64,000 nt of DNA. It comes from Sulfuritalea sp. (lineage in GTDB: Bacteria > Pseudomonadota > Gammaproteobacteria > Burkholderiales > Rhodocyclaceae). A model generated the notes under the pieces. That model was given only the letters and a program-made list of their open reading frames with translations. It had not been told where the DNA came from and searched no databases. Below, piece by piece: positions 32,128 to 59,233 of this stretch. A program made the translations under genes and the position numbers. Every line of letters begins with the position of its first letter. The stretch's first letter is position 1. Location of the stretch: NCBI GenBank assembly GCA_022842325.1, contig JALHPU010000005.1:62001-126000 (forward strand), read 5' to 3'.

Positions 32128-32133
32128 GATGTG

Positions 32134-39218: not shown

Positions 39219-41203
39219 CAGAAAGGCTGCCTCATGCTGGTGGGAGTATCGGAGGCAACCCGATAGCTTGATCGTTTAGGATCAAAGCCGAGTGCCAGTG
39301 GATTGCGACCCATCGCTCGTGAAATCCATCCCGCCGGGACGATCACGAGAAAATATATCGACCCCAGAATCAACCTGGTCTGCGCGCGGGCCAAGGCCGC
39401 GACCAGCCTGCCGCGCAGCGAGGGCTTAACGGCGGGTGCTACTGCGGGCGCGGCAGGAAAATTCGGCTGCGCTTTCCGCTCCAGCAGGTAATCGCCGATC
39501 ACCAGACAATCCAGACCTAGGTTCATGAAACAGTGGAAAGCCTCGGCGGGCGAATTGACAATTGGTTCGTCGGGACCGTTGAACGAGGTATTGAGCAGAA
39601 CCGGAACGCCGGTCATCGCCCCGAACCGTTCCAGCAACCGGTGGAACCGGGGCTGGTGTGCGCGGGACACCGTCTGCAAGCGGGCCGAGCCGTCCACGTG
39701 GGTGACTGCCGCCAACACCGGTTTGCCCGGCAACGGCGGCCGCACGTTTTCGGCGAAGCTCATATAAGGACTCGGCAAGCTGACGCCGAAGTGCTCCATG
39801 GCCCGTTCCTCGATGACCGCCGCAGCGAACGGACGGAAAGTCTCGCGGCGCTTGACCTGCTGGTTCAGCCGCTCGCGCATTGCTGCAGTGCGCGGATCGG
39901 CGAGGATCGAGCGCGCACCCAAGGCGCGCGGGCCGAATTCCATGCGGCCGTCGAACCAGCCTATGGCTTCGCCTTCAAGCAGTCGCCTGGCCACCGTTTC
40001 CAGCAGATCCGCTTCGTCGAGGCGCTCATAGCGCGCGCCCAGCCCTTCAAGACAGGCGACCACTGCCGGCTCGTCATAGGCCGGGCCGAGCAGTGCGGCG
40101 CCCATGTCATCCCGCGTCGGCACGCTGCGCGGCCGGCCGAAATGCTGGTGCCACGCCGCCAGCGCGGCACCGACTGCGCCTCCCGCGTCGCCGGCGGCCG
40201 GTTGTACCCAGATACGGCTGAACGGTCCTTCGCGGCGCAAGCGACCGGCGGCGACGCAATTCAGCGCGACGCCGCCGGCCAGACACAGATTCTCCACTGC
40301 CAGTTCGCGGTGCGCGGCGGCGGCCAGTCGCAGCAGGATTTCCTCGCTAACGCGCTGGATCGAGCACGCGATATCTTTCTCGCGCTGGGTGATCGGCGCA
40401 CCTGGCAAGCGTGGCGGGCCACCGAACAGTGTGCAGAAGCGCTCGTTCACCATCGCCAGACCGACCGCGAAATCGAAATAATTGAGCTGCAAGCGGAAAC
40501 TCCCGTCCGGCTTCAGGTCCACCAGCCGCGACAGAATGATTTCGGCATAGCGTGGGGTGCCATAGGGCGCCAGGCCCATCAGCTTGTATTCGTCGGCATT
40601 GACGCGGAAACCGCAGAACTGCGTAAATGCCGCGTAGAGCAGCCCCAGCGAATGCGGGAAGCGCAACTCCCAACACGGCGCGAGGTCCTGGCCTTCGCCG
40701 TGCCACAGCGAAGTCGTCGCCCATTCGCCGACGCCATCCACGCAAAGCACGGCGGCGCGGTCGAAGGGGCTGGGGAAAAACGCCGACGCGGCGTGGGATT
40801 GGTGATGCGCGCAGAACAGCAGCGGCGGCAGTTCGGCGACGCTACAGCCAGCGGCAGCGGCCAACGCCTCGCGCAGGATGCGTTTCAGTGGCAGTTTTTC
40901 CTTTAGGAAGGCCTGCATCGTGACAATGAAGGCACTCGCGCCGCGAGGCGCCAGGGCCATATGGGTCTCGAGCAGACGGTCGAACTTCTGGATGGGCTTG
41001 TCGTAAAAGACGATGGCATCGAGACTGGGCAGCCCGTTGCCCCACTCGCGCAGGCAGTAACGGATGGCGTCGGCGGGGAAACTCGCATCGAATTTCAGTC
41101 GCGAGAAGCGTTCCTGCTGCGCGGCCGCAACCACACGGCCATCAACCACCAAGGCGGCAGCGCTGTCGTGGTAATAGGCGGATATTCCGAGCAGGGCAGC
41201 CAT
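39218..41203 (-). CDS. Carbamoyltransferase (NodU/CmcH/TobZ family)
   Basis: The 661-residue protein has the N-terminal Kae1-like domain with GISAYYHDSAAALVVDG and ERFSRLKFDASFP, and SHAASAFFPSPF. GGVALNC and GRMEFGPRALGARSIL follow, then the C-terminal segment TSFNGPDEPIVNSPAEA. This family transfers a carbamoyl group from carbamoyl phosphate, via carbamoyl-AMP, to hydroxyls on sugars or antibiotics. The Fe and ATP site histidines (CAHHQSHAASA) are present. The acceptor here is unknown. A surface glycan is likely, given the SGNH neighbour. Confidence 0.93.
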   Translation of the reverse strand: MAALLGISAYYHDSAAALVVDGRVVAAAQQERFSRLKFDASFPADAIRYCLREWGNGLPSLDAIVFYDKPIQKFDRLLETHMALAPRGASAFIVTMQAFLKEKLPLKRILREALAAAAGCSVAELPPLLFCAHHQSHAASAFFPSPFDRAAVLCVDGVGEWATTSLWHGEGQDLAPCWELRFPHSLGLLYAAFTQFCGFRVNADEYKLMGLAPYGTPRYAEIILSRLVDLKPDGSFRLQLNYFDFAVGLAMVNERFCTLFGGPPRLPGAPITQREKDIACSIQRVSEEILLRLAAAAHRELAVENLCLAGGVALNCVAAGRLRREGPFSRIWVQPAAGDAGGAVGAALAAWHQHFGRPRSVPTRDDMGAALLGPAYDEPAVVACLEGLGARYERLDEADLLETVARRLLEGEAIGWFDGRMEFGPRALGARSILADPRTAAMRERLNQQVKRRETFRPFAAAVIEERAMEHFGVSLPSPYMSFAENVRPPLPGKPVLAAVTHVDGSARLQTVSRAHQPRFHRLLERFGAMTGVPVLLNTSFNGPDEPIVNSPAEAFHCFMNLGLDCLVIGDYLLERKAQPNFPAAPAVAPAVKPSLRGRLVAALARAQTRLILGSIYFLVIVPAGWISRAMGRNPLALGFDPKRSSYRVASDTPTSMRQPF

Positions 41204-44143: not shown

Positions 44144-45218
44144 TCTCGCTGCCTCCGCCGAGGAACTGGAACACTGCGATTCGGCTGTTCATCATGTCCG
44201 CCACATAGACCCGGTTGCGTGCATCGATCCAGACCCCGGAGGGAAGATGAAACTGCCCGGCGCTGAATCCGACCCCGCCCAGGGGCATCAGGAATTGCCC
44301 GAGACGGTTGTAGATCAGCAAATAATCGAAATAGGACTCGACCACATACACATTGTCCTCGCTGTCCACTGCGACGCCCTTCGGCCGGGAAAGGTCGCCG
44401 ATGAACATGCCACGCTTGCCGATGGTGCCAAGGTAGCTGCCGCTAGCGGTCGAAAACACCTGGACGCGCGCATTCATGGTATCGGTAACGTAGAGCTTTT
44501 CATTGGCGACCGCGATATGTGTCGGAAAGTTGAATTCGCCCGGCCCGTCACCGCGCGTACCCAGTTCTGCAAGCAATAATCCTTCCAGATTGAAGATCTT
44601 GACCTGATGCGCGGACGCATCGGCGACATACAGCTTGCGCGCAAGCGGATCGTAGGCGACGCCGTTGGGACGGTCGAGGTGGTCCTTGCCGATGCTGGGA
44701 AGCGTCTGGCCATCCGGACCGAGACGGGCCACCAGCCCGAGATCCGCGTCAGCGACGAACGTCTGGCCGTCCGGTCCGATGGCGATCCCCACCGGGCTGA
44801 CGAAGTCGACCAGGCCTTCGGCCTTGGACCAGACTTTCACTTCGGGCACGGTTTCGTCGAACATGAACACTGCGCCGCGACCGATGTCGGTGACGTAAAC
44901 ACGACCCCTGTTATCCACGGCGCCGGATTGCGGGCGGTCGAGCACCATGGGTGGTGCCGGACCGGCGATGATGTCGAGCACCCGGAAAATGCTGTTGACC
45001 ACGCCCTCGCCGAACTCTTCGGGCCGATGGATGTTGGTCTCCCCGCGAAGTTCGCCCAGATAGACATAGCGCGGTACTTCGCCGTCGCTTGCAGGCGGGA
45101 ACATCAGGCGCCGGGTTTCCACGGTGCCATCAAGGCCCATGGAAAACACCGGCTTCTCGCGCAGACTGGAGCAAGCGGCGAGACAAAATGACAGCAAGGC
45201 CAGAATAAAAAATCTCAT
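44136..45218 (-). CDS. NHL-repeat lipoprotein
   Basis: The 360-residue precursor ends its signal in a lipobox (LLSFCLAACSS), then forms about six NHL blades such as GRVYVTDIGRGAVFMF, RKLYVADASAHQVKIF and EKLYVTDTMNARVQVF. It is anchored to a membrane by lipid and may face the cytochromes. It resembles the lipoprotein at 54439-55569. The start is the ATG at 45218; a longer frame exists upstream but is not signal-like. It directly precedes the undecaheme gene with an 8-base overlap. Confidence 0.88.
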   Translation of the reverse strand: MRFFILALLSFCLAACSSLREKPVFSMGLDGTVETRRLMFPPASDGEVPRYVYLGELRGETNIHRPEEFGEGVVNSIFRVLDIIAGPAPPMVLDRPQSGAVDNRGRVYVTDIGRGAVFMFDETVPEVKVWSKAEGLVDFVSPVGIAIGPDGQTFVADADLGLVARLGPDGQTLPSIGKDHLDRPNGVAYDPLARKLYVADASAHQVKIFNLEGLLLAELGTRGDGPGEFNFPTHIAVANEKLYVTDTMNARVQVFSTASGSYLGTIGKRGMFIGDLSRPKGVAVDSEDNVYVVESYFDYLLIYNRLGQFLMPLGGVGFSAGQFHLPSGVWIDARNRVYVADMMNSRIAVFQFLGGGSENE

Positions 45219-45284
45219 GTATTTGCAGCTGTAAGGGTCATGGGCGAAACCTTGCATCCCCGGGTCCGATTGCCTCGTGCGGGT

Positions 45285-46241
45285 TCATTTTCGATGCCGA
45301 CGAATCCTGAATGCGGCGACGGTGCGGCTGGCTCCATCCGCAACGTACATCATGCCACCGGAAACCGAAATTTGATCGGGGGCGAGCAGATTGAGTTCCG
45401 TTGCCGGAATGGTTTCCAGCCCCCCCTGGAAAACCCGCGAGATGCTTCTGTCGAAACCATCGAGTACATAAATTTCTCCTGCATCGGCGACGAGCGCCTT
45501 CGGCAGCCGAATCTGCCCCGCAGCCAGTTGTCGCACCAGGCGTCCGGCACGCCACTCGCTGACGCATCGGCATTTGGCGTCGGCAATCAGCAAGCTGTCA
45601 CCGAAAATTGCCATCGGGCCGGCGGCAGGAACGTCAAGATGCGCCAGCGCCATGCGACCCAGCGGCTCGATTTGATCCACCACGCTCCACATGGCATCGA
45701 CGGCGAACACGCGACCGCTCGAGCCGTCGACCGCGAAATCGAGATAACGACTGCTCGGCACCCGTGGATGCATAGCCGGTTGCGGACGACCGTCCAGGCC
45801 GTAGCGTTGAATCTCGCCACGCATGGCGTCGAGCACATACAGCGTGCCGTCGGGCGAACTGCGCAACAGGCTGCCGGCAGCGATCCTCACCCCAGGCAAC
45901 GCGTGCATCAAGCCGCTGTTGCGCTCATAGCGAAACAAGCGTCGATGGCCCGCATCGGCAATGTAGATCGACCCCAGGCTGGCCACCACGGCCACCGGGA
46001 ACATGAAGGGAAGATAAGTCTCCCGCCCCCCCGGCAAGGGATAGCCGGTGCCATCGGCCTTGTCGGTCAGGGTCGCACCGGTGATGCCGAACGCCGGTTC
46101 CAGCCAATGCTCGGCTCTGGCGCGTGCCAGCGCCGTGCCGCCACAACCGACTATTGCCAGTGCGCCGGCGAGCGCCGCGCCGCGCAGGAGAAAGGCGCGG
46201 CGACTACCAGCGCCCGGGACCGCCGGTTTCATGACCGCCAT
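45285..46241 (-). CDS. NHL-like beta-propeller with twin-arginine lipoprotein signal
   Basis: The 318-residue product starts with a twin-arginine-like signal (SRRAFLLRGAALAGALAIVGCG) that also has a lipobox-like cysteine. Tat export of a lipoprotein is therefore possible. The rest has propeller blades such as GSIYIADAGHRRLFRY and GEIYVLDGFDRSISRVF. Heme motifs are absent. The ATG at 46241 has AGGA upstream and overlaps the end of the triheme gene. It lies between two NHL/cytochrome genes of the operon, so it is probably a docking or structural partner. Confidence 0.78.
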   Translation of the reverse strand: MAVMKPAVPGAGSRRAFLLRGAALAGALAIVGCGGTALARARAEHWLEPAFGITGATLTDKADGTGYPLPGGRETYLPFMFPVAVVASLGSIYIADAGHRRLFRYERNSGLMHALPGVRIAAGSLLRSSPDGTLYVLDAMRGEIQRYGLDGRPQPAMHPRVPSSRYLDFAVDGSSGRVFAVDAMWSVVDQIEPLGRMALAHLDVPAAGPMAIFGDSLLIADAKCRCVSEWRAGRLVRQLAAGQIRLPKALVADAGEIYVLDGFDRSISRVFQGGLETIPATELNLLAPDQISVSGGMMYVADGASRTVAAFRIRRHRK

Positions 46242-46587
46242 AGATTCCTGTGGGCAAGCCGCGCTTGCCGGAGTGACACAAATCGCATTTATCGGGCGCC
46301 CAGGCTATGTCGCCATTGTGACAGGCGCCGCAGAAGCGCCCCTCGACAATGTCGGCCATCGTGAAATCATTGCTGCCAACGCGCATCTTGAAGCCAAGTT
46401 CGGCATGGCAAACCTTGCAACGAAAGCGGATGCGGTGGAACCAATGGGGAAACACCACCGGCCGTACGCCCTCCTTTTCCGAACGTCGGTTCAGCACCAC
46501 GTCCGCATACTCGGCCGCTGCCGGCGGTACCTCGCCGGCCAAGGCCACCAACAGCAGCAGCAGGATTCGGGCCTGGCGTGCAGCCAT
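46204..46587 (-). CDS. Periplasmic triheme c-type cytochrome, type A
   Basis: The 127-residue precursor has a signal peptide (RILLLLLVALAGEVPPAAA) and three CxxCH motifs: CKVCH, CGACH and CDLCH. It contains FPHWFHRIRFRCKVCHAELGFK and FCGACHNGDIAW, nearly the same as the gene at 49075-49485, so the two are paralogues. Histidines before CKVCH can serve as distal ligands. The ATG at 46587 overlaps the upstream stop by one base (TGATG). The length and spacing recall small c7-type cytochromes. Confidence 0.87.
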   Translation of the reverse strand: MAARQARILLLLLVALAGEVPPAAAEYADVVLNRRSEKEGVRPVVFPHWFHRIRFRCKVCHAELGFKMRVGSNDFTMADIVEGRFCGACHNGDIAWAPDKCDLCHSGKRGLPTGIYGGHETGGPGRW

Positions 46588-47144
46588 CACCGCGGTGGCA
46601 CCGCACCGGGCGGAATCGCGATCGGCAATGTCGGCCTCAGCACGTTCCCCGGCCGCGCCACGCTGTGGCAACGAAAACATTCGGTCAAGGGAAAGGCCAC
46701 CGCGCCATGGCATACGCCGCACTGCTCACCCTCGAGGATGGCCAGCATGGAGAACTGGTTGGCGCCCGCCTCGGCCTTGAACAAATGATCATGGCAATTG
46801 GCGCAATCCAGCCACTGGGTATGCTGGCGATGCGGAAACCTGACGATGGGCATGCCACCCTTCAGGTTGAGCAGGACATCCGAGTCATAGACCCGAATCT
46901 TGGTGTCGGGACGAATGCTGGCGCGCGGATTGATTTCGCTTTTCTCCAGAGCCTGAACCCAGCGCACCATGTTTCCGGCGTTGTCCGGGGTCAGTTTAGA
47001 AAGCGCCGCGCCGGGCTCCTGCAATTCTTTCACACCGGGACCGCGGGGATCGTGAATGCCATCCTTGCGCAGCGTCTCCCAACCCTGGGCCTGGACGGAA
47101 AAGCTCGCCAAAACCGCAACAGCGGCGGCGAGCCCAATGCGCAT
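46587..47144 (-). CDS. Periplasmic triheme c-type cytochrome, type B
   Basis: The 185-residue precursor has a signal peptide (AAAVAVLASFSVQAQ) and three CxxCH motifs in the last 85 residues: CANCH, CGVCH and CFRCH. It shares GIHDP, WVQALEKSEINPR, FPHRQHTQWLDCANCH and CGVCHGAVAFPLTEC with the C-terminal domain of the gene at 48058-49062, and a WLDC segment with the gene at 9257-9886. It is probably an electron carrier between the inner and outer membranes. The start at 47144 sits 4 bases after the helical-protein gene. Confidence 0.87.
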   Translation of the reverse strand: MRIGLAAAVAVLASFSVQAQGWETLRKDGIHDPRGPGVKELQEPGAALSKLTPDNAGNMVRWVQALEKSEINPRASIRPDTKIRVYDSDVLLNLKGGMPIVRFPHRQHTQWLDCANCHDHLFKAEAGANQFSMLAILEGEQCGVCHGAVAFPLTECFRCHSVARPGNVLRPTLPIAIPPGAVPPR

Positions 47145-47148
47145 GGCT

Positions 47149-48045
47149 TTATCCAGGGATATAAATACCCGCATTGCGAATTGCGCGCACCAGCTCCGCG
47201 GTTGAATCCTCCAGCAGTTTGACCGCCTCGTCGTAGGCTTTGCGCGATGCTGCATCATCTGCCTTGATCCGCATTTCCTGTGCCTTGGAAAGATAGGCCT
47301 GAATCATGTCCCCGCTCGCCTTCTTGTCATCGACCAGCACTTTGATCAGCATCTGGTGCGTATTGTTCCGGTCGATTTCGTAGTGGTATTCCTCTTCCTT
47401 GTTGGCGAAGTTGAGCGAGCGCGTCAAGGTATCGCCGCTGCGCAGGCTGGTCAGGCCGGCTTTGGCCACCAGGTAGCCGCGGTCGATTTCAGTGCGCGCC
47501 TCCTTGAACTTGCGTTCCTTCGCCAAAGCTGCACCTGCTGCAATCGATTTTTCGATCTGCGCCACCGTGCCGGCGACACCCTTGGCGGCTTTCTCGTCCG
47601 AAACCCGCTTGTAGGCACCGAGCAAGGCCTGCACACTTTCCAGTTGCAGCAGGTAATCGTTCTCAAGCTTTTTCACGGACACTTCTTCCGGCGCGGCGAA
47701 GCGGACGGCATCGAAAAAGGTCGAACGCGACTCGGCCAGCAAAGCCGAAGCCTTTTCGAGATTACCCTGCTCCAGCGCGGCCTTGGCGGCACGATGCAAC
47801 TCGCGCGCTCGGTCACGGCGCTGCATGGCTTCGGGCGCCTTGCTCGACTCAATCTGACGCGCAGCCGAAGAGCTTTCCAGCAGTTTTGCGACAGAATCGA
47901 GATTCGACGACAGTTGTCCCTTGTCGATCTTGTTACCGGCCAGTCGCGACGCGGCGGTTTCGGGCGTGGCCGCAGGCGTGGTGGTCTGTGCCAGCACTAA
48001 AGCAGAGAACATGACGGGAATCAGCAGGAAAACAAACTTGTTCAT
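47149..48045 (-). CDS. Periplasmic helical protein of unknown function
   Basis: The 298-residue precursor has a signal peptide (FVFLLIPVMFSALVLAQ). The rest is predicted to be almost all helix and coiled coil, with no cysteine: long charged runs such as DRARELHRAAKAALEQGNLE and EARTEIDRGYLVAKAGL. I do not recognise the family. It sits centrally between cytochromes of types A/B (49075, 48058 on one side and 46587, 46204 on the other). That position suggests a spacer, chaperone or scaffold for them. Confidence 0.75.
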   Translation of the reverse strand: MNKFVFLLIPVMFSALVLAQTTTPAATPETAASRLAGNKIDKGQLSSNLDSVAKLLESSSAARQIESSKAPEAMQRRDRARELHRAAKAALEQGNLEKASALLAESRSTFFDAVRFAAPEEVSVKKLENDYLLQLESVQALLGAYKRVSDEKAAKGVAGTVAQIEKSIAAGAALAKERKFKEARTEIDRGYLVAKAGLTSLRSGDTLTRSLNFANKEEEYHYEIDRNNTHQMLIKVLVDDKKASGDMIQAYLSKAQEMRIKADDAASRKAYDEAVKLLEDSTAELVRAIRNAGIYIPG

Positions 48046-48057
48046 GATTGGGCCTCT

Positions 48058-49062
48058 TTACTTCGCCGGCGCCGCAGCCGCCTGCGCCGGACGGGTGTCC
48101 TTCTTCTTCGAATGGCATAGGCGGCACTCTGAAACCGGGAACGCCACCTTGCCGTGACAGACGCCGCACTTTTCTCCCAGCAGGATCGCGGCCATGCTGA
48201 TTGCATTGGCACCTTTCTGCGGAGTGAAAATCGCCGGATGGCAATTCGAGCAGTCGAGCCACTCGGTGTGCTGCTTGTGCGGGTAGACCACATCGGGCAT
48301 CGATCCCTTGACCTCACGCACGATATTGAGGTCGACGATCACCGGAGTGGCATTCGGGTCCTGTTTGTCCCAGCGCGGATTGATCTTCCCCTCCTCGATG
48401 GCCTTGACCCAATTAACGCGATTGCCGACCAGACTTTTCGGCAAGGGTCCATAGGCCGCCAACGGCGCCATCAGGGCCATCGTCCCGTCGTTGGCCGGAT
48501 CGTGGATGCCATCTTCGGCGGGAGGGGGATTGCGCTTGCCGATCGGCTTCAACAGACGGTTGAAGGAATTGATGTCGGCCGATGACGCGCCGGATGTATT
48601 CGAGGACACATCGACTGGAGCGGATGCTGCGGCAGGTACTGCAGCCACGGCAGGTACGGCCACTTGCGCCGCAGGAGCCGGAGCGGCCACGGTCGCCGCG
48701 GGTTTTGCCGGAGCGACGGCCGCAGCAGCCGGCGCCGGCTTGGCGGCACTGCCTTTGACGGCAGCCAGCATGTAATCCACCGCCGCCTTGACGTCGCCAT
48801 CCGACGCGCCGGTGTTGCCGCCCTTGGCCGGCATGCCCTTGGGTGTACCCTTCAGAGCGCTGGTGTACAAACGCGCCGTGCCGGCGGCAATGCGCGGCTG
48901 CCAGTCCGCGGCGTTGCCGAGCCGTGGCGCACCGGCAATTCCTGCCGCGTGACAGACTGCACAGGTCTTGGCGTAAAGATCCTTGCCGACGTCGGCCGCA
49001 ATTGCAGAAGCGGCCCAAAGCAACGAGGCCAGCGCGGGAAGAACAATTCGTTCGATTTTCAT
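48058..49062 (-). CDS. Tetraheme cytochrome: c5-like monoheme domain fused to a type B triheme domain
   Basis: The 334-residue precursor has a signal peptide. It then has a class I/c5-like monoheme domain with CAVCH and KGMPAKGGN (candidate methionine), an Ala/Pro-rich linker of about 60 residues, and a C-terminal triheme domain with CSNCH, CGVCH and CRLCH. The C-terminal domain matches the type B cytochrome at 46587. The linker is long and flexible, which would let the monoheme domain swing between partners. The closest monoheme relative here is the c5-like gene at 56603. Confidence 0.88.
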   Translation of the reverse strand: MKIERIVLPALASLLWAASAIAADVGKDLYAKTCAVCHAAGIAGAPRLGNAADWQPRIAAGTARLYTSALKGTPKGMPAKGGNTGASDGDVKAAVDYMLAAVKGSAAKPAPAAAAVAPAKPAATVAAPAPAAQVAVPAVAAVPAAASAPVDVSSNTSGASSADINSFNRLLKPIGKRNPPPAEDGIHDPANDGTMALMAPLAAYGPLPKSLVGNRVNWVKAIEEGKINPRWDKQDPNATPVIVDLNIVREVKGSMPDVVYPHKQHTEWLDCSNCHPAIFTPQKGANAISMAAILLGEKCGVCHGKVAFPVSECRLCHSKKKDTRPAQAAAAPAK

Positions 49063-49074
49063 GATCGCGCGTCC

Positions 49075-49485
49075 TTATTTCTTTTGAAGCGCTGCAGGAG
49101 CAAGTTTCTGGATCGTGCTTTCGTGCACCTGGGTCGGCGTACCCGGTTTGGCCGAATGACACAGATTGCAGTTCTCGACCGACCAGGCGAGTTCGCCGTT
49201 GTGGCAGGCGCCACAGAACTGGCCGTCGATGATCTTCACCATGTTGATCTCGTTGCCACCCGCCTTGAACTTGAAGCCGAGGTCGGCATGACAAACCTTG
49301 CAGCGAAAGCGCACGCGATGAAACCAGTGCGGGAAGATCGCCGGCCGCATGCCCGCTGCGTCGGAATAGTTATTCATCACGATATCGCCGTATTCGGCAT
49401 GCGCCTCATCGACATCGACCATCAGCACCGCGACCAGCGCCAATACGACCAGCAGCAATCGCCGCCAGATAGATTTTTCTGACAT
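49075..49485 (-). CDS. Periplasmic triheme c-type cytochrome, type A
   Basis: The 136-residue precursor has a signal peptide (RLLLVVLALVAVLMVDVDEAHA) and CKVCH, CGACH and CNLCH. It is a clear paralogue of the gene at 46204-46587, sharing FPHWFHRVRFRCKVCH and FCGACHNGELAW. GAGGA precedes the ATG at 49485 and decides the start. It ends 12 bases before the type B fusion gene at 48058, so A and B types are produced together. Confidence 0.87.
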   Translation of the reverse strand: MSEKSIWRRLLLVVLALVAVLMVDVDEAHAEYGDIVMNNYSDAAGMRPAIFPHWFHRVRFRCKVCHADLGFKFKAGGNEINMVKIIDGQFCGACHNGELAWSVENCNLCHSAKPGTPTQVHESTIQKLAPAALQKK

Positions 49486-49536
49486 GATTTTCCTCTTTGC
49501 AAACCCAGGGCGGAAGTTTAGCCCACAGAACATCGC

Positions 49537-51852
49537 TTACCAGCGTCCGTCGAAAAAACCGTCGAACTCACGGTTAACGGAGCCGAAGATAGAAGCACTT
49601 TTCCTGCCAGCCTGTTCGATCATGGCGTGATTCAGACGAAATGTCAGGCGACCTATCCTGTAATCCAGCAATTGCTGAAACGAAAAGCTTTGCTGCGCCT
49701 GATTGCCGAGCGGGTCTGAGCCGACCAACCGGGTGCTGGACTGGCTGTTGATCCAGAGCACGCTGGCGTTGTAATTCAGATTGCGGATCGAGAATGGACT
49801 GCTGTGCGCATAGCCAAGACTGAAACTGCCGCTCGTCTGGCTCTGGTTGTCATTGCTTAGCAGACCATTGACCACTTCCTGCTGTGCGTTGGTACCGACG
49901 AAGTTCTGGCTCCAGTTCAGGTTGGCATTGGCCGTCAGCGCCGCCCTGGAACTGATCTGGTACTGCCCGTTGCCCACCAGATTCATGTTGCGATAGTGAT
50001 TGTTTCCCGATTGCCCGGTACTGATGTTGTCGGAGAAGTTAGCACTCAGGCTGACCGTCAGGGCCTCGCCATAGCCCGCACGCCAGGCCGCACCAAGACT
50101 GTGCGACAGCGCCGTCGCCGGCCCCGCCTGGGTCTGGTTATAGGACAGGATCTGACCGGCATTCAGATTCAGGGCCTGGGCTTCGCTGATCACGAGTGTC
50201 CGCGTCAGGTTGTGACCGGCCGAGGTGCTGAGGCCAACAGAGTTGCCACCCTGGGTGGCGACGTTGCCGCTCAAGCCAGCGCCGAGGTTCCAGCCGTAAC
50301 TGTAATCCCCGAACTTGCGCGGGTCACCCGTATACGAGGCGTTAGCGCCTGCCCCCCCCGAGGTGACACGACCAACGACCGAGGATGTCGAGGCCACGAA
50401 GGCATTCCCCGACGCCGACAGGTTATTGCTGAAGCGGTAACTGGTGGCCAGGTTTGCGGCCAGAGTCTGCTGACTCATGACCTCGTCCGCCAGAATGATT
50501 TGCGTCTGCGTGAAACTGCCGCCACCGGTCAGGGTCAGCGGCAGATCCTCAATTGGTCGCCAGATAAAATTGGTGGCCGCGAGCAGAACCCTTGAATCAT
50601 TGCGGGCCAGGGTGTCACCGACGAACTGGTCGCGCCGCGTGCTGGCCAGGGCAAGGGTATTGCCAATGCTGAGATCTTCATGAACCGTCCAACTGTGGCT
50701 GGCATTTGCGTTCAGCAGGCGTGACGTCTGGCCGCCAAGATCACTGGTGGACGGCGTGAAGGCCAGACTGGCATTCAGGCTGTGATCACCTTCCAGATAA
50801 TGATCCGGATCGAAAACCCGTCGCGCCGAGAAACTGCCGTTGAGGGAGGAGTTCTGGCTGGTGCTGGTGCCACTTACATAGCTGTTGCGGTTGTAACTGG
50901 CGCTATAAGTATCGCCGACCTCCGTCCGATACTGCTGACGCAAGCCGAGGGATGTGTTGGTGGTGGGCGCCCGGTTCTCCCCGGCCCGCGATTCCGACGT
51001 CCCGTGATTGAAGGTTGCGCTGAAGGGGAAACGACTGACCGGGAAGACATTGACACTACCGCCGAAATTGAGTCCGCTGCTGTCACTCTTCACTACCGGC
51101 CCGCTCGCTGGGGTGAACGTGCTATCGGTGGAATTCATCCCGAAAACTCCCGACCATTGGGCGATGTAAGGCGCACCAATGAAACTGTTGGCCTGGACGT
51201 TCAATGTGTTGTGGATGCTCAGGCTCTTCGCGCCGTCATCGGAACCAAAATAATTGCCGCTGCTACCGGAATTTCCTACCCAGCGGATCGGCGCCATCAC
51301 CCAGGTTTCGCCGCTCAAATCCGGGAGTCCGGAATCCGCGGACTTTGCCGTACCGGTTGCCGGCCGTTCAGCGCCCGCGGGGGCGCGCCGCGCGCCCGCC
51401 ACCGCTGGTGTCGGATCGAAGGGCACCGGCGCTTCGGGTTGGTCCGGTCCGTCGCCCGAATCGCCATCCCTGCCGCGCCCCGAAGGAGTGGCTCGGCCCT
51501 CCGCCGCTGCGCGCGCTGCGCGCGCAGCGCGGAATGTGCGCGACGGGGAGCCGGTGGCCGGCGCAGTTGCCGCCGGCTGCAGCAAGATCGTCAGGGACAG
51601 GCGAACTGGACCCTCTGCCACGGCGGGACGCCATGCATCGCGTGCCGGCTTGCGTCGCTCGGACTTGCGCCGTTCGCCAAGTTGCAACGACAGCCGCAAG
51701 GCCGGCGGTGCGTCGCTCAGGCCTGGCGCCAGCCCGCTTCTCGACGCGGTGTCAGCGGCCCAGGCCTCACCGCTGCAAATTGCGCCGCCCAAGGCGCCGG
51801 CCAGCAAGCGCCAGAGTTGCGCGCGGCGAAAGGTCGGCTGACCATTCCTCAC
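49537..51852 (-). CDS. Outer-membrane beta-barrel protein, candidate porin partner for cytochromes
   Basis: The 771-residue precursor has a signal peptide (LLAGALGGAICSGEAWAAD). A low-complexity Arg/Ala/Pro-rich region lies at residues about 50-175. A barrel region of about 590 residues follows, with many alternating-hydrophobic strands and Asn/Ser/Thr turns. It ends in aromatic tryptophan (FFDGRW), as barrel proteins do. There is no CxxCH. Lying beside trihemes and multihemes, it could be the porin of a porin-cytochrome conduit, but its sequence does not allow me to assign the MtrB family. The start is GTG at 51852. Strand count and barrel function are unproven. Confidence 0.75.
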   Translation of the reverse strand: MRNGQPTFRRAQLWRLLAGALGGAICSGEAWAADTASRSGLAPGLSDAPPALRLSLQLGERRKSERRKPARDAWRPAVAEGPVRLSLTILLQPAATAPATGSPSRTFRAARAARAAAEGRATPSGRGRDGDSGDGPDQPEAPVPFDPTPAVAGARRAPAGAERPATGTAKSADSGLPDLSGETWVMAPIRWVGNSGSSGNYFGSDDGAKSLSIHNTLNVQANSFIGAPYIAQWSGVFGMNSTDSTFTPASGPVVKSDSSGLNFGGSVNVFPVSRFPFSATFNHGTSESRAGENRAPTTNTSLGLRQQYRTEVGDTYSASYNRNSYVSGTSTSQNSSLNGSFSARRVFDPDHYLEGDHSLNASLAFTPSTSDLGGQTSRLLNANASHSWTVHEDLSIGNTLALASTRRDQFVGDTLARNDSRVLLAATNFIWRPIEDLPLTLTGGGSFTQTQIILADEVMSQQTLAANLATSYRFSNNLSASGNAFVASTSSVVGRVTSGGAGANASYTGDPRKFGDYSYGWNLGAGLSGNVATQGGNSVGLSTSAGHNLTRTLVISEAQALNLNAGQILSYNQTQAGPATALSHSLGAAWRAGYGEALTVSLSANFSDNISTGQSGNNHYRNMNLVGNGQYQISSRAALTANANLNWSQNFVGTNAQQEVVNGLLSNDNQSQTSGSFSLGYAHSSPFSIRNLNYNASVLWINSQSSTRLVGSDPLGNQAQQSFSFQQLLDYRIGRLTFRLNHAMIEQAGRKSASIFGSVNREFDGFFDGRW

Positions 51853-52083: not shown

Positions 52084-53109
52084 TTACTTCGCTGACGCAG
52101 GCGCCGCTGGCGGTTCGTGGATCACGATACTCGCCGTGCCCCTGAGCTTGACCACCAAATCCTGCCAGGCCTTTTCTTTGCGCTCACGGTGCAACAAGTC
52201 CGCGGCGCGCTCGGCGACCCGGCTGAATTCCTGCAACTTGGGCGGAATCCTGTCATCCAGGCGAAATACTCCAACGCCCTGCAGCATTTGAATCGGCTCG
52301 CTCACCTCGCCGGCCTTGAACTGATCGACCTTCGCCTGCAGGGCTTCGGGCAGCATGCCCCGGTGCAGGTAGCCCATGTCGCCGCCTTGCTCGGCGCTGC
52401 CGTCCTTGGATGCCATGCGCGCCAGTTCGCCAAAATCGGCGCCGCCCCGAATACGCCGCACGATGCCTTCCGCCTCCCGCATCGCCGCGTCCCACACCGG
52501 CTGTGCCGAAGACGGATCGACCGCCAGCAGAATGGTATGCAGTCGAACTTTCTCGGGTTCGGTAAACAGCGCAGGCCGGGCCGCGTAGAACGCCTTGACC
52601 TCCTCGGCACTGGGTGCGGGAACATCGCGCACCACCTGCTCCAGCCGACTCAGCCGGTCTTGCTGATCCAACTGCTGGCGCAGGCCGGGCAGCATCGCTT
52701 CACGACTTTTCTGCCAGTTGGGATTGGATGCGTAGCGCTGATCGTAGACCTGGATCTGCTTTTCGACCTCCGCACTGTCGGCGGCGATGCCGCGGCGCTC
52801 GATCTCCTCGAGAAACAGGATACGATCGATCAGCTTGTCGCTGACCTCCTTGCGTGCCTGCACCAGTTGCTCCTGCGGCACCTGGCCGTGATAAAACTTC
52901 TGCCGCAGGAACGTCGCATAGGCGGAGTGAAACTCGGCCTGGGTCACCGGTTTGCCATTGACCGTCGCGTACAGCGGCAGGACGGTAGCCGCCGCTGGAG
53001 TGGCCGCCGCCGCAACCGGCTTGACCGCTTGTGCAAAAGCGATGGGGAATGACAAGCATGTCGCCAACACGATGCCGGCCACGGCCGACCCGCCATTTTT
53101 CAATTTCAT
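52084..53109 (-). CDS. Periplasmic peptidyl-prolyl cis-trans isomerase (SurA/parvulin type)
   Basis: The 341-residue precursor has a signal peptide (VLATCLSFPIAFAQA), then a SurA-like N-terminal helical domain with VNGKPVTQAEF and QVPQEQLVQARKEVSDKLI. A parvulin domain lies at residues about 190-300 (VRLHTILLAV, GGADFGELARMASKDGSAEQGGDMGYLHRGML). The C-terminus is a helix with a Pro/Ala tail. It probably folds exported barrel or cytochrome proteins. It precedes the barrel gene with a 231-base gap and follows a terminator-like hairpin. Confidence 0.9.
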   Translation of the reverse strand: MKLKNGGSAVAGIVLATCLSFPIAFAQAVKPVAAAATPAAATVLPLYATVNGKPVTQAEFHSAYATFLRQKFYHGQVPQEQLVQARKEVSDKLIDRILFLEEIERRGIAADSAEVEKQIQVYDQRYASNPNWQKSREAMLPGLRQQLDQQDRLSRLEQVVRDVPAPSAEEVKAFYAARPALFTEPEKVRLHTILLAVDPSSAQPVWDAAMREAEGIVRRIRGGADFGELARMASKDGSAEQGGDMGYLHRGMLPEALQAKVDQFKAGEVSEPIQMLQGVGVFRLDDRIPPKLQEFSRVAERAADLLHRERKEKAWQDLVVKLRGTASIVIHEPPAAPASAK

Positions 53110-53348: not shown

Positions 53349-54233
53349 TTACTTGTTGTGGCAGGTAAGGCACACCGCGCTGCCCGCATTGGAAACCCGC
53401 AGGAAGGTGGGGTTCGCACTGGAATGCGGATCATGGCAGGAGCCGCACTCGACCGAGGGGTAGGTACCGGCTCCCAGACCACCGTTCGCGGGGAAGGCGC
53501 GGTTATAAAGAATCATGTCGGTCTTCTGACGCCCGGCCACGGCGGTAAGGTTTTCAACCCAGAAAACCGTCTGACCACCGATCGAAGCGTTTGACGGTGC
53601 TCTGAAGTCGACATCCTGGCATAAAGCACCCGGGGTTGTTGTACCCGGACCGCCGCCGCAATACTGTATGCCGATCGGATGGTCGTTGCTCAGGTCCCGC
53701 CCCAGCATCGACAGCGTGGTCGCCGCGTTGGTCATTTGACCGGCGGCATTGGAATTCCCACCCGCTGCCCAGGTGTAGGCCAAGCCGCCAGTTCCACCGC
53801 CGGTTACGTCGTAACCGCCGGAACCCGGCGCATTCAGGATGTTGTCCATCGCCTGCGTGCCGTCATGGCAGGACAGACAGGCCAGCGACACCGAACCGAT
53901 GCTCAGGTTACCCGCCTGACCGTCGTTGGCGAGAACCGCATCCATGGTCGAGGAGGATGAGTACGTGGTGAAAGCCGTTGCACTTCCGGTATTGAGCCGC
54001 TTGTTCCACAAGGGTACGCCCGCCGTGGACACATCCGCCGCGTGCGGGGTGTGGCAGAACACGCAAATCTCGGCGGTGCCGGCGGTGACATTGGTTACGC
54101 CTGGGTTGCCCGCCGTCGTCCCGAGGTTGTGCCTGGTGTTGGTGACTTGCGCAATGGCGACCGATGCGCCGAAGGCCATGACCGCCGCCAACAGCCATCT
54201 CGCCGTACGGCCTGTTTCTTTTCCGATTCTCAT
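53349..54233 (-). CDS. Small tetraheme c-type cytochrome, OmcE-like candidate filament subunit
   Basis: The 294-residue precursor has a signal peptide (AAVMAFGASVAIAQ) and four CxxCH motifs: CVFCH, CLSCH, CGSCH and CLTCH. The whole protein contains exactly eight histidines: four in the heme motifs and four others (TRHNL, TPHAAD, NDHPIG, DPHSS). This is the exact number for four bis-histidine hemes. The region between hemes 2 and 3 is Gly/Ser/Asn-rich, and two extra cysteines could form a disulfide. The layout recalls OmcE of Geobacter, a polymerising tetraheme cytochrome, from memory. AAGGAG precedes the ATG at 54233. It is probably secreted and surface-associated. Confidence 0.9.
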   Translation of the reverse strand: MRIGKETGRTARWLLAAVMAFGASVAIAQVTNTRHNLGTTAGNPGVTNVTAGTAEICVFCHTPHAADVSTAGVPLWNKRLNTGSATAFTTYSSSSTMDAVLANDGQAGNLSIGSVSLACLSCHDGTQAMDNILNAPGSGGYDVTGGGTGGLAYTWAAGGNSNAAGQMTNAATTLSMLGRDLSNDHPIGIQYCGGGPGTTTPGALCQDVDFRAPSNASIGGQTVFWVENLTAVAGRQKTDMILYNRAFPANGGLGAGTYPSVECGSCHDPHSSANPTFLRVSNAGSAVCLTCHNK

Positions 54234-54438: not shown

Positions 54439-55569
54439 TTACTGCGCAGCCTTGCTCGCGCCCGGCCCGCGTCCGAGGTAGCCTTCGCTTTCTTTCATGG
54501 CGTGGGGGCGAAACACGTCGATCCGCGCAAACCATTGATCCACGAAATAAATCCGGCCATCCTCGTCGACCGCGATGCCCGATGGCAGCATGTACCCGCC
54601 GGGTTTGTCCTGCTCCGAGCGATCGCCGATGAACATCAGCAGTTCGCCGTCCGGGGTGAATATCTGAAAATTGCCGAAGGCCGTATCGGCGACATAGACG
54701 TTGCCATCCCGATCGGTGGCGATTTCCTTGGGTCGGGCGAAGTTGCCGAGCTGCTTGCCGGCCGCGCCGAAGCTCTTGATGAACTTGGCGTCCTTGTCAA
54801 AAATCTGCACGCGGAAATTGCCGCCGTCGACTACGTAGATCCGCCCATCCTTGCCCAGGGCAACGTCGCGCGGCAGATTGAACTCGCCCGGCCCGGTGCC
54901 GCGTTTGCCGATATCGAACAAATGCTCGCCCGTAACACCATTGAATACCCTGACCCGGTGCTGGTCCGAACTGACGCCGCCAATATCGACCACATAGACC
55001 TTGTCGCCACTCTCGGTCACCGTCACGCTCGACAGGCGGTCGAACATCTTGGGGCCACCGAATTTGCGCAGGAACTTGCCTTCGTTGTCGAAGACGACGA
55101 TGCGCTTTTGCGTCGCATCCGCGACGTAGAGATTGCCGGCGCCATCGACGTCGATGCCCAGCGGCTTGGCGATGCGGCCCTCGCCATCCTCGTCACCGAT
55201 CCGGTAGTACCTTTTGCCGGGCACGTCGAACACCTTCACCGCCCTGCCGACCGAGTCGGAGACAAATATCTTGCCCTTGTGCACCACGATCGCATACGGC
55301 TTGGACAGTCGCTCGGCGCGCTCGTCCGAGGTTCCGGTCAATACCCGCTTCAGCGCCGATTGATCGGCCTCCGGCACGACATCGGTACTGGCGCGAATCG
55401 CGCGTTCGTACACGAAACGGGGCTCATCCGGCGGCTCCGGGTAAACCAGCGAGCGGGCAGCCCGCCCGATCTGGTCGATGTCGCGCTTTTGCACCGTCAC
55501 GCAGGCGCTCAGGCCCAGAATACACAGCAACAGTACTACCCGCGTCAGGGCACGAACTTGCGTCTTCAT
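54439..55569 (-). CDS. NHL-repeat lipoprotein
   Basis: The 376-residue precursor has a lipobox (LCILGLSACVT) and six NHL-type blades, for example GKIFVSDSVGRAVKVF, GNLYVADATQKRIVVF, GRIYVVDGGNFRVQIF and GNVYVADTAFGNFQIF. It parallels the lipoprotein at 44136-45218. The blade loops hold many D and G residues; there is no heme motif. Located between two tetraheme genes on the same strand, it may hold or guide the cytochrome at the membrane, as propeller proteins often accompany surface cytochromes. Start ATG 55569. Confidence 0.9.
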   Translation of the reverse strand: MKTQVRALTRVVLLLCILGLSACVTVQKRDIDQIGRAARSLVYPEPPDEPRFVYERAIRASTDVVPEADQSALKRVLTGTSDERAERLSKPYAIVVHKGKIFVSDSVGRAVKVFDVPGKRYYRIGDEDGEGRIAKPLGIDVDGAGNLYVADATQKRIVVFDNEGKFLRKFGGPKMFDRLSSVTVTESGDKVYVVDIGGVSSDQHRVRVFNGVTGEHLFDIGKRGTGPGEFNLPRDVALGKDGRIYVVDGGNFRVQIFDKDAKFIKSFGAAGKQLGNFARPKEIATDRDGNVYVADTAFGNFQIFTPDGELLMFIGDRSEQDKPGGYMLPSGIAVDEDGRIYFVDQWFARIDVFRPHAMKESEGYLGRGPGASKAAQ

Positions 55570-55609: not shown

Positions 55610-56401
55610 TTATTTGTCGTGGCAGGTCAAACACAATTGGCTACCCGCGGCAGAAACCCGCAGGAAGGTTTCCGTCTTGGTATGCGGATCGTGACAACTG
55701 CTGCACTCGATGTGCGGCACCGCCATGCCGGATTCCATGCCGGGATCGCTGCTGTTGACGCGCCCATACAGCGGCAGATCGTTGCGCGTGCGACGCGCAG
55801 TGACGCCATTGCGCGACACCCAGAAGACCGCACGATTCTCGACCACTCCTTCGCTGGCCTCGCGAAAATCCTCAACGGAAAGCAGATGCCGGGCGGTACG
55901 AAACGGCGTCGAGGAGTCTGCTTTCGGTATCACGATGGCGCCGCTCGGCGCCGAGTGTCTAAGCGCACCGCGATATGGAACGCCAAACGGATGATCCCTG
56001 GAGGTCGAGCTGATCGTCAAAGCCTGATTGGAGTCGTGACAGGACAGGCATGCCATCGATTGCGAACCGACCGAGGGCTTGCCCAAGCCGAGCCGCCCAA
56101 TGTCATCATAGATGGTAAAGACGAAGCCGTCGACAAGGGACTTCTTCTGCCAGCGCGGAGTCATGGCGCCGCCAGCTCCGTCCGCTCCGAGCGGAAGATC
56201 CCCCTCCTCGTTCAGCGGGGTATGACAAAACACGCAGACCTGCTTTTCGCTGACGCTCTTGTCGCGGGACCTGATCATGTTGTGCGGGGTTTCGCGGACG
56301 TCGCCCGACGCCTGCGCGGCCAACAGAAGGGCACCGAGGCCGACGAGCAGCGATGCGATGATGCTCCGCATCGGGCGGGAAAGCGATCGATATACCTTCA
56401 T
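55610..56401 (-). CDS. Tetraheme c-type cytochrome, paralogue of the 53349 gene
   Basis: The 263-residue precursor has a signal peptide (IIASLLVGLGALLLAAQASG) and CVFCH, CLSCH, CSSCH and CLTCH in the same order and frame as in the gene at 53349. The distal-histidine sequence after CVFCH is TPL rather than TPH, and there are ten histidines in all. So it is a diverged copy. DHPFG and CHDPH are kept. No membrane helix follows. It is probably a periplasmic or surface partner. The ATG at 56401 starts the leftward run that continues to 41339. Confidence 0.9.
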   Translation of the reverse strand: MKVYRSLSRPMRSIIASLLVGLGALLLAAQASGDVRETPHNMIRSRDKSVSEKQVCVFCHTPLNEEGDLPLGADGAGGAMTPRWQKKSLVDGFVFTIYDDIGRLGLGKPSVGSQSMACLSCHDSNQALTISSTSRDHPFGVPYRGALRHSAPSGAIVIPKADSSTPFRTARHLLSVEDFREASEGVVENRAVFWVSRNGVTARRTRNDLPLYGRVNSSDPGMESGMAVPHIECSSCHDPHTKTETFLRVSAAGSQLCLTCHDK

Positions 56402-56602: not shown

Positions 56603-56980
56603 CTAGCGCCTTTTCGCCACCCGCGCCTGACCCGTCTGGCCGGTAATCGCTTCGAGCATGTAATCCAGGCCTGCGGCCGCCTGCTCATCGGAAATCGACG
56701 CATTGCCGCCCTTCGGCGGCATGCCGCCCTTGCCACGCAGCACCGCATTCAGCAACGCTTGCCGTCCGAGGGACAAGCGCGGCTCCCACTCGGTCTGATT
56801 GTCAACCCGCGGCGCCATCGCCACGCCATGGACATGGCACAAAGCACAGTTCTGCACAAATACTTCGCGTCCGGTTGACCTGTCTGCTGCCACCGCGACA
56901 CCATCCGCGAGTCCGAGCGAAATCATCCACATGGCCAGCGGAGTCAAAACCAGTAGAAGTCGAATTCCAACCGAACCCAT
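56603..56980 (-). CDS. Monoheme c-type cytochrome (cytochrome c5-like)
   Basis: The 125-residue precursor has a signal peptide and one CALCH motif, with KGGMPPKGGNASISDEQ downstream providing a likely methionine ligand. This is the same domain as the N-terminal part of the fusion at 48058. A basic tail (ARVAKRR) ends it. Start: ATG 56980. It lies on the same strand as the tetraheme gene, about 200 bases upstream of it. It is probably a periplasmic carrier. Confidence 0.87.
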   Translation of the reverse strand: MGSVGIRLLLVLTPLAMWMISLGLADGVAVAADRSTGREVFVQNCALCHVHGVAMAPRVDNQTEWEPRLSLGRQALLNAVLRGKGGMPPKGGNASISDEQAAAGLDYMLEAITGQTGQARVAKRR

Positions 56981-57172
56981 TTTAGTATGCAATGCCTCCA
57001 CGACCTGCCGGAAACCAGCCAATGACGCAGACTTGTTTAGAGATAAAGTTACGCAAGAATCACACCAGACCAATTTTCAGGCGCGATACCTGCTTCCGCG
57101 ATTGCGGCAGGGCATGAATTGGCTCTACCATGTACGCCTTGTGCAAACAAATCCACGGAGCACTGCTCGGCC

Positions 57173-58249
57173 ATGACTGTCACCCCGTTGCAACATTTAG
57201 GTTTTATTGCCAGGATCGTTTTCGCTGCCCTTGCCTTTGGGGCGATTGTTCCTGCTGCGGCTCTGGCCGGCAAGCACGACGCCAAAGGTGCCGAGTCAAG
57301 GCCCGACGCGATTTACCACAATTACTGCTCGGTCTGCCACGGTGACCGGGGTGACGGCCGCAGTCGGGCAAGAAACAGCCTGAATCCACCGCCGCGAGAC
57401 TTCACCGCCGCCGGCGAATTGAACCGTGAGACCATGATCATCATTACCGCGCACGGAAAATCGGGAACTGCAATGGTCGGCTGGAAAACCCAGCTTAGCG
57501 CGGCGGAGATCGAGGGAGTGGTTGACTACATTCGCCAAACTTTTATGGTCGTCGCGCTGGATCCCCGACTGCAGCGCGGCAAGGCAGTCTATGCCCAGAA
57601 CTGCATTGCCTGCCACGGCGCGCAAGGGCAGGGCAGCAGTCTGCCGATCGGCGGCTCGAAACCGGCACGCGATCTGGCGTCACCTCAGGCGCGGGCGGAA
57701 CTGACCCGCGAACGCATGATCTCTTCGGTAACAATGGGTCGTGCCGGAACGGCGATGGCGGGATTTGGCGGTCGCCTGCCGGCACCTGATATCGAGGCCG
57801 TGGTTGATTACGTGCGCAGCGCCATCATGGTGCCGCATACCGAAATCTCCGGCACCGATGCCCACGCCGGGCGAAAGGGATCCCAAGTCCCTGCCAAGAA
57901 GGCCTCTGGCGCCGACATGAAACAACCCATGCCCAACGGACTAAAAGGCGACGCGGTTGCCGGCGGCCGCTTTTATATGGCGAACTGTGCGACTTGCCAT
58001 GGCGCCAAAGGCGACGGCAAGGGACCCCGTGCCTACTTCATCATGCCGAAACCGCGGAATTTCGTCGATCCGGCCTACAGTTCGGGGGCCAACCGGCCGG
58101 CTATCTTCGCCACAACCTCGGTCGGCCGCCTTGGCACGGAAATGCCTGCATGGAACAAGGTACTTACCGACCAGGAAATCGCCAACGTATCGGAGTTCGT
58201 CTTTCAGCGTTTCATTTTGCCGCGACAGAAACAACCCAAGATCAAGTAG
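57173..58249 (+). CDS. Triheme c-type cytochrome (three monoheme domains)
   Basis: The 358-residue precursor has a signal peptide (IVFAALAFGAIVPAAALAG) and three class I cytochrome c domains, each with one motif: CSVCH, CIACH and CATCH. Each domain repeats the pattern HGxxGxG ... GTAM ... I/V-x-x-V-x-D/E-Y/F-(V/I)-R. GTAM/GTEM segments supply candidate methionine ligands. A Lys/Ala/Ser linker separates domains two and three. It is divergent from the c5-like gene and heads a plus-strand run of four cytochrome/protease genes. Confidence 0.9.
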   Translation: MTVTPLQHLGFIARIVFAALAFGAIVPAAALAGKHDAKGAESRPDAIYHNYCSVCHGDRGDGRSRARNSLNPPPRDFTAAGELNRETMIIITAHGKSGTAMVGWKTQLSAAEIEGVVDYIRQTFMVVALDPRLQRGKAVYAQNCIACHGAQGQGSSLPIGGSKPARDLASPQARAELTRERMISSVTMGRAGTAMAGFGGRLPAPDIEAVVDYVRSAIMVPHTEISGTDAHAGRKGSQVPAKKASGADMKQPMPNGLKGDAVAGGRFYMANCATCHGAKGDGKGPRAYFIMPKPRNFVDPAYSSGANRPAIFATTSVGRLGTEMPAWNKVLTDQEIANVSEFVFQRFILPRQKQPKIK

Positions 58250-58255
58250 TTGCAT

Positions 58256-59233
58256 ATGAAGGTACGTGCCATCGCCGCCGTTCTGGCGGCGTTGTCTCTT
58301 CCAACCAGCGCGACTCCCGTGCCCGACGTGATGGCCGAGGGCCGCGCGATTTACAACTTCCGCTGCTATTTTTGTCACGGCTATTCGGGCAATGCGAAAA
58401 CCGTCGCTGCCAGCTTTCTGGCTCCGCCCCCGACAGACTTCACAAAGGCGTCGGAGACCAGTTTGCCGGAAGCGAAAATCATCGCCACTGTGCAGACCGG
58501 CAGGCCCGGAACGGCGATGAAGTCATTCAGCTCGATATTGTCGGATAAAGAGACGCGTTCCGTGGCGCGCTTTGTCTTTGACGAGTTTGTCGTCAGGAAG
58601 GCTGCCAACACCCAATACCATACGGCTGAAAACGGTTGGCCGAATCATGAGCGCTACCGCATGGCCTTCCCGTTTGCGACCGGTGAAATTCCTCTCGCGC
58701 AACCCTGGGAAACGCTTAGCGCAGAGCAAGCGCGTGGCAAGCGGCTGTTTCTCGAAACCTGCGTCACCTGCCACGACCGCGGCGCCCCGGCGACTCAGGA
58801 TCTGCCATGGGAGGCCCGCCCGCTCTCCTACCCACGCAACAACTTTTCATACACGGTCCCGCAAAAGGTCGATGCCACGACCAGCGCCAGTCCCTATGCG
58901 CTGCACGATATCCCGCCGAAGCTGAAACGCCTGACCCGGACGGAAAGAAAGGGCGAGAAACTGTTTCAGTCAAACTGCGCCTTCTGTCACGCCGCGGACG
59001 GGACCGGCAAGAACTGGATCGGCAGCTTTCTCGAACCGCATCCACGCAACCTGCGCGATGCCGAGTTCATGAGTCGCATCACGCGGCAGCACTTCGTCGG
59101 CATAGTCCGCGAAGGCTTGCCTGACACCTCGATGCCTGCCTGGAAAAATGTGCTGTCCGCAGCGGAAATAGAGTCCGTTGCGGATTACGTCAATCGGGCT
59201 TTCCACCCGCTGCATAAAGCGCCGACGAAATAA
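58256..59233 (+). CDS. Triheme c-type cytochrome (three monoheme domains)
   Basis: The 325-residue precursor has a short signal peptide (AIAAVLAALSLPTSATP) and three cytochrome c domains with CYFCH, CVTCH and CAFCH. The first and third resemble those of the upstream gene (GTAM and TSMPAW segments). The middle domain, with CVTCHDRGAPATQDLPW, is different. The ATG at 58256 lies 6 bases after the upstream stop, so the two are coexpressed. It is probably a periplasmic partner of that cytochrome. Confidence 0.9.
   Translation: MKVRAIAAVLAALSLPTSATPVPDVMAEGRAIYNFRCYFCHGYSGNAKTVAASFLAPPPTDFTKASETSLPEAKIIATVQTGRPGTAMKSFSSILSDKETRSVARFVFDEFVVRKAANTQYHTAENGWPNHERYRMAFPFATGEIPLAQPWETLSAEQARGKRLFLETCVTCHDRGAPATQDLPWEARPLSYPRNNFSYTVPQKVDATTSASPYALHDIPPKLKRLTRTERKGEKLFQSNCAFCHAADGTGKNWIGSFLEPHPRNLRDAEFMSRITRQHFVGIVREGLPDTSMPAWKNVLSAAEIESVADYVNRAFHPLHKAPTK

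Follow-up and report, generated by a model that had tools for sequence, protein, structure and literature searches.

UetA, an OmcE-family tetraheme cytochrome in a Uet-type gene cluster of Sulfuritalea sp., is a candidate subunit of an extracellular heme wire

Results

The tetraheme gene and its neighbors

The window analyzed here is a stretch of 64,000 nucleotides from Sulfuritalea sp. (contig JALHPU010000005.1, positions 62,001 to 126,000 of the forward strand), and coordinates refer to it unless another contig or locus is named. The gene under study has an uninterrupted reading frame on the minus strand (54233-53349), and its product has 294 residues; the plus strand contains stops at 53349-54233. 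It is annotated as a UetA-type, presumably extracellular, tetraheme c-type cytochrome of the OmcE family, on the basis of homology and of eight ligand histidines that are invariant in the alignment described below. The four CxxCH motifs are found at residues 57, 119, 263 and 288, and the histidines of the whole protein number eight (residues 35, 61, 64, 123, 185, 267, 270 and 292). The translated frame thereby bears out a preliminary description of this DNA, which had counted four histidines in CxxCH motifs and four elsewhere. The same description had placed one histidine near the mature N-terminus. By eye the protein begins with a typical signal peptide, and a putative cut after AIA28 would make His35 residue 7 of the mature protein, in agreement with that claim. 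Searches of Pfam and NCBIfam returned only doubled-CxxCH or related multiheme motifs near the C-terminus. Two non-heme cysteines, Cys192 and Cys205, are jointly present in 58 and jointly absent in 23 of 81 aligned sequences, and likely form a disulfide.

UetA is part of a long row of genes on the minus strand. Upstream of it, the order runs from a monoheme class-I cytochrome c (56603-57073; profile match) through a second OmcE-like tetraheme protein, for which we coin the name UetA2 (55610-56401; recognized by ligand alignment, with CHTPL in place of CHTPH), to an NHL propeller with a lipobox pattern, LSAC, directly upstream of UetA (54439-55569; NHL 2.9e-26). Downstream follow a UetB-like PPIC-type peptidyl-prolyl isomerase (PPIase) of 341 residues (52084-53109; Pfam Rotamase 1.2e-14), a heme-free protein of 771 residues (49537-51852), a UetD-like triheme c7 cytochrome (49075-49533; Cytochrome_C7 1.2e-14, TIGR04257), a UetE-like cytochrome with one class-I c domain and a triheme c7 domain (48058-49062; domain matches), a UetF-like heme-free protein (47149-48045), a UetG-like triheme c7 cytochrome (46587-47258) and a further one (46204-46722), both identified by profile matches, a UetH-like NHL propeller (45285-46241; NHL 1.1e-6), a UetI-like NHL propeller with the lipobox pattern LAAC (44136-45257; NHL 6.4e-26), and finally a UetJ-like undecaheme cytochrome of 934 residues with 11 CxxCH motifs and an N-terminal OmcE match (41339-44143). 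On the plus strand, the cluster is bordered by a conserved pair of divergent genes for class-I cytochromes c with several domains each (57119-58249 and 58250-59233). Propeller and PPIase genes had been expected next to the cytochrome gene in the preliminary description, and the Pfam matches confirm both neighbors.

The 771-residue protein had no Pfam match and no match in the PDB better than E 0.1; its position and the published content of Uet clusters make it a candidate UetC-like outer-membrane beta-barrel. The UetF-like protein, for which Pfam gave no match, is encoded where Ca. Tenderia has the TPR protein Tel_16525. Triheme c7 genes within 46204-49533 score above the cut-off of the NCBIfam family TIGR04257, which carries the name 'nanowire_3heme'.

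Two other loci on the minus strand of the window were noted. Directly downstream of UetJ, 35674-41203 encodes carbamoyltransferase-like, TPR and formylglycine-generating-enzyme-like proteins, named from reading only, which are possible modifiers of surface glycans. A second multiheme locus at 25995-34359 comprises a 1016-residue cytochrome with 24 CxxCH motifs, an NHL-like gene, a triheme protein, seven- and eight-heme cytochromes, and a cytochrome b561-like membrane protein that falls below the Pfam cut-off; it is possibly another electron-transfer conduit.

Conservation and identity of the cluster

Among relatives with sufficient flanking sequence, the PPIase gene lies directly downstream of UetA, on the same strand, in 76 of 76, and an NHL gene directly upstream in 67 of 75. 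The wider surroundings were compared by counting same-strand homologues in those 50 of the 80 loci whose sequence extends 9 kb or more from UetA in each direction. The PPIase, three c7 genes and the c+c7 gene were each present in all 50 loci, the upstream NHL gene in 48, the UetI-type NHL lipoprotein in 48, UetF in 47 and the UetH-type NHL gene in 36; in the counts for c7 and NHL genes, paralogues can be matched to one another. A UetC homologue was found in 45 loci and some heme-free ORF of at least 500 residues within 4.5 kb in all 50, UetJ in 37 (a figure limited by flank), and UetA2 in 25. Each of the divergent class-I cytochromes accompanies UetA in 45 of the 50 loci, on the opposite strand, and the monoheme cytochrome c in 30, of which 28 have it on the same strand.

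Of 398 genomes sampled across the phylum, 23 matched UetA, one of them (G176) only in pieces, and all 23 also hold a UetJ-like frame of 544-1233 residues, counted as frames with their hemes uncounted. The distribution in a sample of relatives is patchy. At E 1e-10, matches were obtained in 14 of 41 genomes, in some cases solely to other members of the family; G035, for instance, has UetJ- and pentaheme-type matches and lacks UetA proper. The records of UetA loci are mostly titled Beta- and Gammaproteobacteria, and strains of Leptothrix, Dechloromonas and Aromatoleum are among the carriers. On a contig binned as Acidobacteria (locus L063, 3029-3901), the tree places a UetA nearly identical to that of the betaproteobacterial locus L059, the result of either transfer or a binning error.

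The cluster corresponds to Uet (undecaheme electron transfer), and the gene to UetA, an identity that rests on gene content and order. The content of Uet, a pathway of Ca. Tenderia electrophaga and Gallionella, is taken from excerpts of PMC10734462, and the Ca. Tenderia locus tags (trihemes Tel_16515, 16520 and 16530, TPR protein 16525, undecaheme 16545) from excerpts of PMC5371394; the genes of the window agree with both. Among the open-licence literature matches listed, the names UetA or UetJ occur in PMC10734462 and PMC13386937, with no whole-word match in PMC12575090; the main text of the two former papers does not contain 'OmcE'. PCC3 was also considered as the identity of the cluster. 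As excerpted from PMC5566968, it has a pair of multiheme cytochromes (MHCs) that each carry a very large number of hemes, along with an inner-membrane protein of five helices. It was rejected, Uet being the better fit.

UetA belongs to the OmcE family by sequence

UetA is clearly homologous to OmcE, the nanowire protein of Geobacter, and, judged by its sequence, a member of the OmcE family. A phmmer search of the PDB matched it to OmcE (7TFS) at E 9e-26, and a profile of the family did so at E 1.1e-40; the corresponding values for a second entry, 9yuq, were E 2e-21 and E 1e-38. The eight ligand histidines of UetA align one to one, and in the order of OmcE, with those of 7TFS, and likewise with 9yuq.

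AlphaFold models of the UetA monomer were too poor for ligand geometry, both with 66 sequences (pLDDT 55.0, pTM 0.41) and for the mature protein with 136 sequences (pLDDT 60.7, pTM 0.55). When the second, weak model was submitted to Foldseek, 7TFS ('Cryo-EM of the OmcE nanowires') was the only one of 34 listed matches below E 0.001 (E 2e-4, probability 0.99, TM 0.35/0.42, rmsd 12.1), the next having E 2.1. This match agrees with the sequence result and, because the model is weak, is not independent proof of the fold.

Eight ligand histidines are invariant

For the analysis of the ligands, UetA was aligned with the best 80 of 312 relatives from a scan of genome contigs, the start codons of the relatives being set by script. 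All eight histidines and all four CxxCH motifs are invariant in 81 of 81 sequences, among 51 invariant columns that include the eight ligand histidines and the eight heme cysteines. No further column contains histidine in at least 20% of the sequences of this alignment. Histidine counts of the whole proteins are 8 in 36 sequences, 9 in 22, 10 in 12, 11 in 8 and 12 in 3, and the extra histidines of the 45 relatives with 9-12 are unconserved. Since the eight are invariant throughout and five of them (35, 64, 185, 270 and 292) are not covered by the peptide patterns with which relatives were searched for, their conservation goes beyond chance.

A second, separately found set of 30 whole-genome loci gave the same picture. 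It comprises 25 complete tetraheme ORFs, 20 of them not identical to members of the first set, and the eight histidines are present in all 25. Five loci did not pass the filter. Two of them, L094 and L095, failed solely because of a spurious CxxCH upstream and do carry all eight histidines; the sequences of the other three are truncated or masked.

This accounting, extended below by pentaheme relatives, supports the earlier reading of four bis-histidine hemes, which need eight histidines. The count itself was rejected as evidence that proves a filament: ligation within one chain would require the same number, so eight histidines cannot separate intra-chain from inter-chain ligation. Four intra-chain bis-histidine hemes would indeed be fitted exactly by eight histidines in a soluble extracellular electron shuttle, yet we regard such a role for UetA as improbable in view of its OmcE homology, the conservation of the full ligand set including the N-terminal His-Asn, and the fixed place of its gene in a cluster that also encodes c7 proteins, UetJ and a candidate porin.

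UetA2, pentaheme relatives and the N-terminal module of UetJ

UetA2 keeps seven of the eight ligand histidines in 29 of 29 sequences. The exception is the position of His64, which is never histidine (0/29) and is occupied by Q in 11, T in 9, I in 3, L in 2, R in 2, E in 1 and M in 1. A search for a replacement ligand found no other histidine column filled in more than 11 of the 29, and no Met or Lys column above 85% in UetA2 with less than 30% in UetA. UetA2 may thus be either a chain end or a protein with one open or otherwise ligated heme. Since specialization thus exists in the family, UetA itself might not be a conductor, and might instead have a periplasmic function or be a dedicated oxidase or reductase with one labile ligand. 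We consider this highly improbable, since UetA, in contrast to its paralogue, keeps all eight ligands and the c7 trihemes of the same cluster would already serve periplasmic transfer.

The genome also holds, on another contig (C19, locus L086, 8433-9389), a pentaheme OmcE-like paralogue behind an NHL-like gene. Together with 16 matches from other genomes it makes up a set of 17 open frames of 310-485 residues that are unlinked to the cluster, and all 17 have five CxxCH motifs and ten invariant histidines. The ten are the eight of UetA, one in the new CxxCH motif and one before that motif; a further column has histidine in 9 of 17. One added heme comes with exactly two added invariant histidines, which supports the bis-histidine bookkeeping.

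Within residues 1 to about 320 of its 934, UetJ contains the motifs LHNL, CVFCHTPH, CLSCHDG, NDHP, CTTCHDPH and CLACHDK, and residues 15-254 match OmcE 7TFS at E 1.6e-18. The loci yielded 50 UetJ-type fragments; after removal of seven that had fewer than three hemes, the remaining 43 were aligned with the UetJ of the window. The first seven ligand histidines of the module are present in 44 of 44 sequences, and the heme-4 histidine in 35 of 35, nine fragments ending earlier. The N-terminus of UetJ is thus an OmcE/UetA-like tetraheme module, and a candidate for the base of a wire. No description of UetJ with such a module was found among the matches listed from the open-licence literature. In a tree of 106 rows, from which every second UetA row and nine cut UetJ rows were left out, the UetJ modules form one group (100/100) and UetA2 another (100/100), and UetA needs two changes; the deeper branching order is unsure because the joining branches are long.

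Discussion

Which histidine may cross the subunit border

If UetA forms a filament, one of its histidines would be expected to ligate a heme in the neighboring subunit. In OmcS we take this ligand to be His16. Residue 16 of OmcS, in the numbering of the profile alignment, is the CHxxH histidine directly after heme 1, and its counterpart in UetA is His64, not His35; by comparison with OmcS, His64 is at least as good a candidate as His35. Both His35 and His64 (in CHTPH) are accordingly treated as candidates for the cross-subunit donor.

The preliminary description had stated that an N-terminal histidine is known to ligate a heme in the next subunit of OmcE/OmcS-type filaments. Inter-subunit ligation by histidine in OmcE and OmcS is reported in excerpts of PMC9473688, PMC12954529, PMC12307469 and PMC12203936, and that part of the statement stands; according to the last of these, a histidine of the adjacent subunit ligates heme 2 in OmcE and heme 5 in OmcS. 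The excerpts of all four papers leave the OmcE residue unnamed, and His35 is not accepted as a known cross-subunit ligand. The excerpts also differ on the superposition of the OmcE hemes, which are matched to hemes 3-6 of OmcS in PMC12203936 and to the first four in PMC9473688.

A proposed extracellular wire

We propose, with a probability of roughly 0.6, that UetA is an OmcE-family tetraheme protein which polymerizes extracellularly to give a linear heme wire, and that this wire connects to a conduit in the outer membrane. UetA would be exported, its folding aided by the PPIase UetB and perhaps by the NHL propellers, and the subunits would then stack outside the cell so that the heme wire is insulated. 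Each of the four hemes would take two of the eight invariant histidines, the second histidine of one heme coming from the next subunit, with His35 and His64 as the two leading candidates. The wire may be coupled to a conduit made up of the UetC barrel and the undecaheme UetJ, and the triheme cytochromes UetD/E/G would carry electrons across the periplasm. As to the direction of flow, the genome contains a RuBisCO gene (E 2e-137), which favors electron uptake by a lithoautotroph; assembly contamination is 5.15%, and the RuBisCO contig is possibly a contaminant.

Excerpts of PMC12977616 report that homologues of the wire former OmcS in Geobacter need not form wires, and the homology of UetA to a wire former therefore does not prove a wire. 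UetA might instead combine the OmcE fold and an extracellular location with a single docking on UetJ/UetC, comparable to that of MtrC on MtrAB, and serve as the outermost redox surface without polymerizing. The description of Uet as a porin-MHC complex (excerpts of PMC10734462), the UetJ-like frame in every UetA-positive genome of that sample and the point that homologues of a wire former need not form wires would agree with this arrangement, but we find it doubtful: OmcE, the nearest named homologue of solved structure, forms a filament, the eight ligand histidines, including the one that crosses the border in OmcE, are kept throughout the alignment, and UetJ already has a UetA-like module of its own. 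Of the preliminary description's candidate filament subunit, the family assignment is upheld by sequence, and filament formation by UetA is retained as the leading hypothesis on grounds of homology.

A more specific and tentative version of the polymerizing wire has three parts. UetA would form the shaft. UetJ, with its module and seven remaining hemes, would be a built-in base through which the heme chain runs on from the outer-membrane conduit into the wire. UetA2 would form the end: a terminator, should His64 donate across the subunit border, or a tip with an open, reactive heme, should His64 ligate within its own chain. If true, this arrangement would explain both the anchoring and the termination of a cytochrome nanowire.

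According to excerpts of PMC12307469, the secretion and membrane anchoring of cytochrome nanowires are still speculative, and those of PMC13194489 describe the physiological role of cytochrome filaments as disputed. Here, one cluster joins an OmcE-type subunit, a module-bearing undecaheme protein, a candidate barrel, a PPIase and putatively periplasmic trihemes, and this combination is conserved in most of the 50 loci. If UetA polymerizes, wires are likely to be part of Uet-type electron transfer, and UetJ offers a concrete model of how they are anchored.

Comparison with known systems

OmcE of Geobacter sulfurreducens (7TFS) and UetA are homologous in two stretches that jointly hold all four heme motifs, and both proteins end directly after heme 4. 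They differ in length (232 against 294 residues) and in the cysteines, as OmcE has none at the position aligned with Cys192, and the Cys205 region is unaligned with it. The comparison with OmcE covers the protein alone; the gene of UetA shares its cluster with genes for c7 cytochromes, an undecaheme cytochrome and a candidate porin. The entry 9yuq, a 'Putative multiheme cytochrome c' of 218 residues with 16 chains in one PDB entry, resembles UetA in sequence; it is absent from the 34 Foldseek matches listed, and its code was found in none of the papers searched.

OmcS matches the UetA family profile weakly, through its CxxCH stretches (E 2.4e-4), and has six hemes against the four of UetA; with a match limited to these short stretches, and with four hemes in UetA, the OmcS family was rejected for it. 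The octaheme OmcZ family was rejected on the four heme motifs of UetA, and OmcZ is absent among the three PDB matches of UetA at E up to 10 and the three profile matches at E up to 1. The osc operon of G. sulfurreducens, as excerpted from PMC13194489, groups wire genes with companions for which functions in folding and secretion have been proposed.

The whole cluster resembles Uet. In the excerpted description the tetraheme protein, the PPIase, the barrel candidate, the trihemes, the NHL pair and the undecaheme UetJ with 11 CxxCH motifs are as found here, and their order matches. Compared with that description, the Sulfuritalea cluster has in addition the c7 gene at 46204-46722, the upstream NHL gene and the second tetraheme cytochrome.
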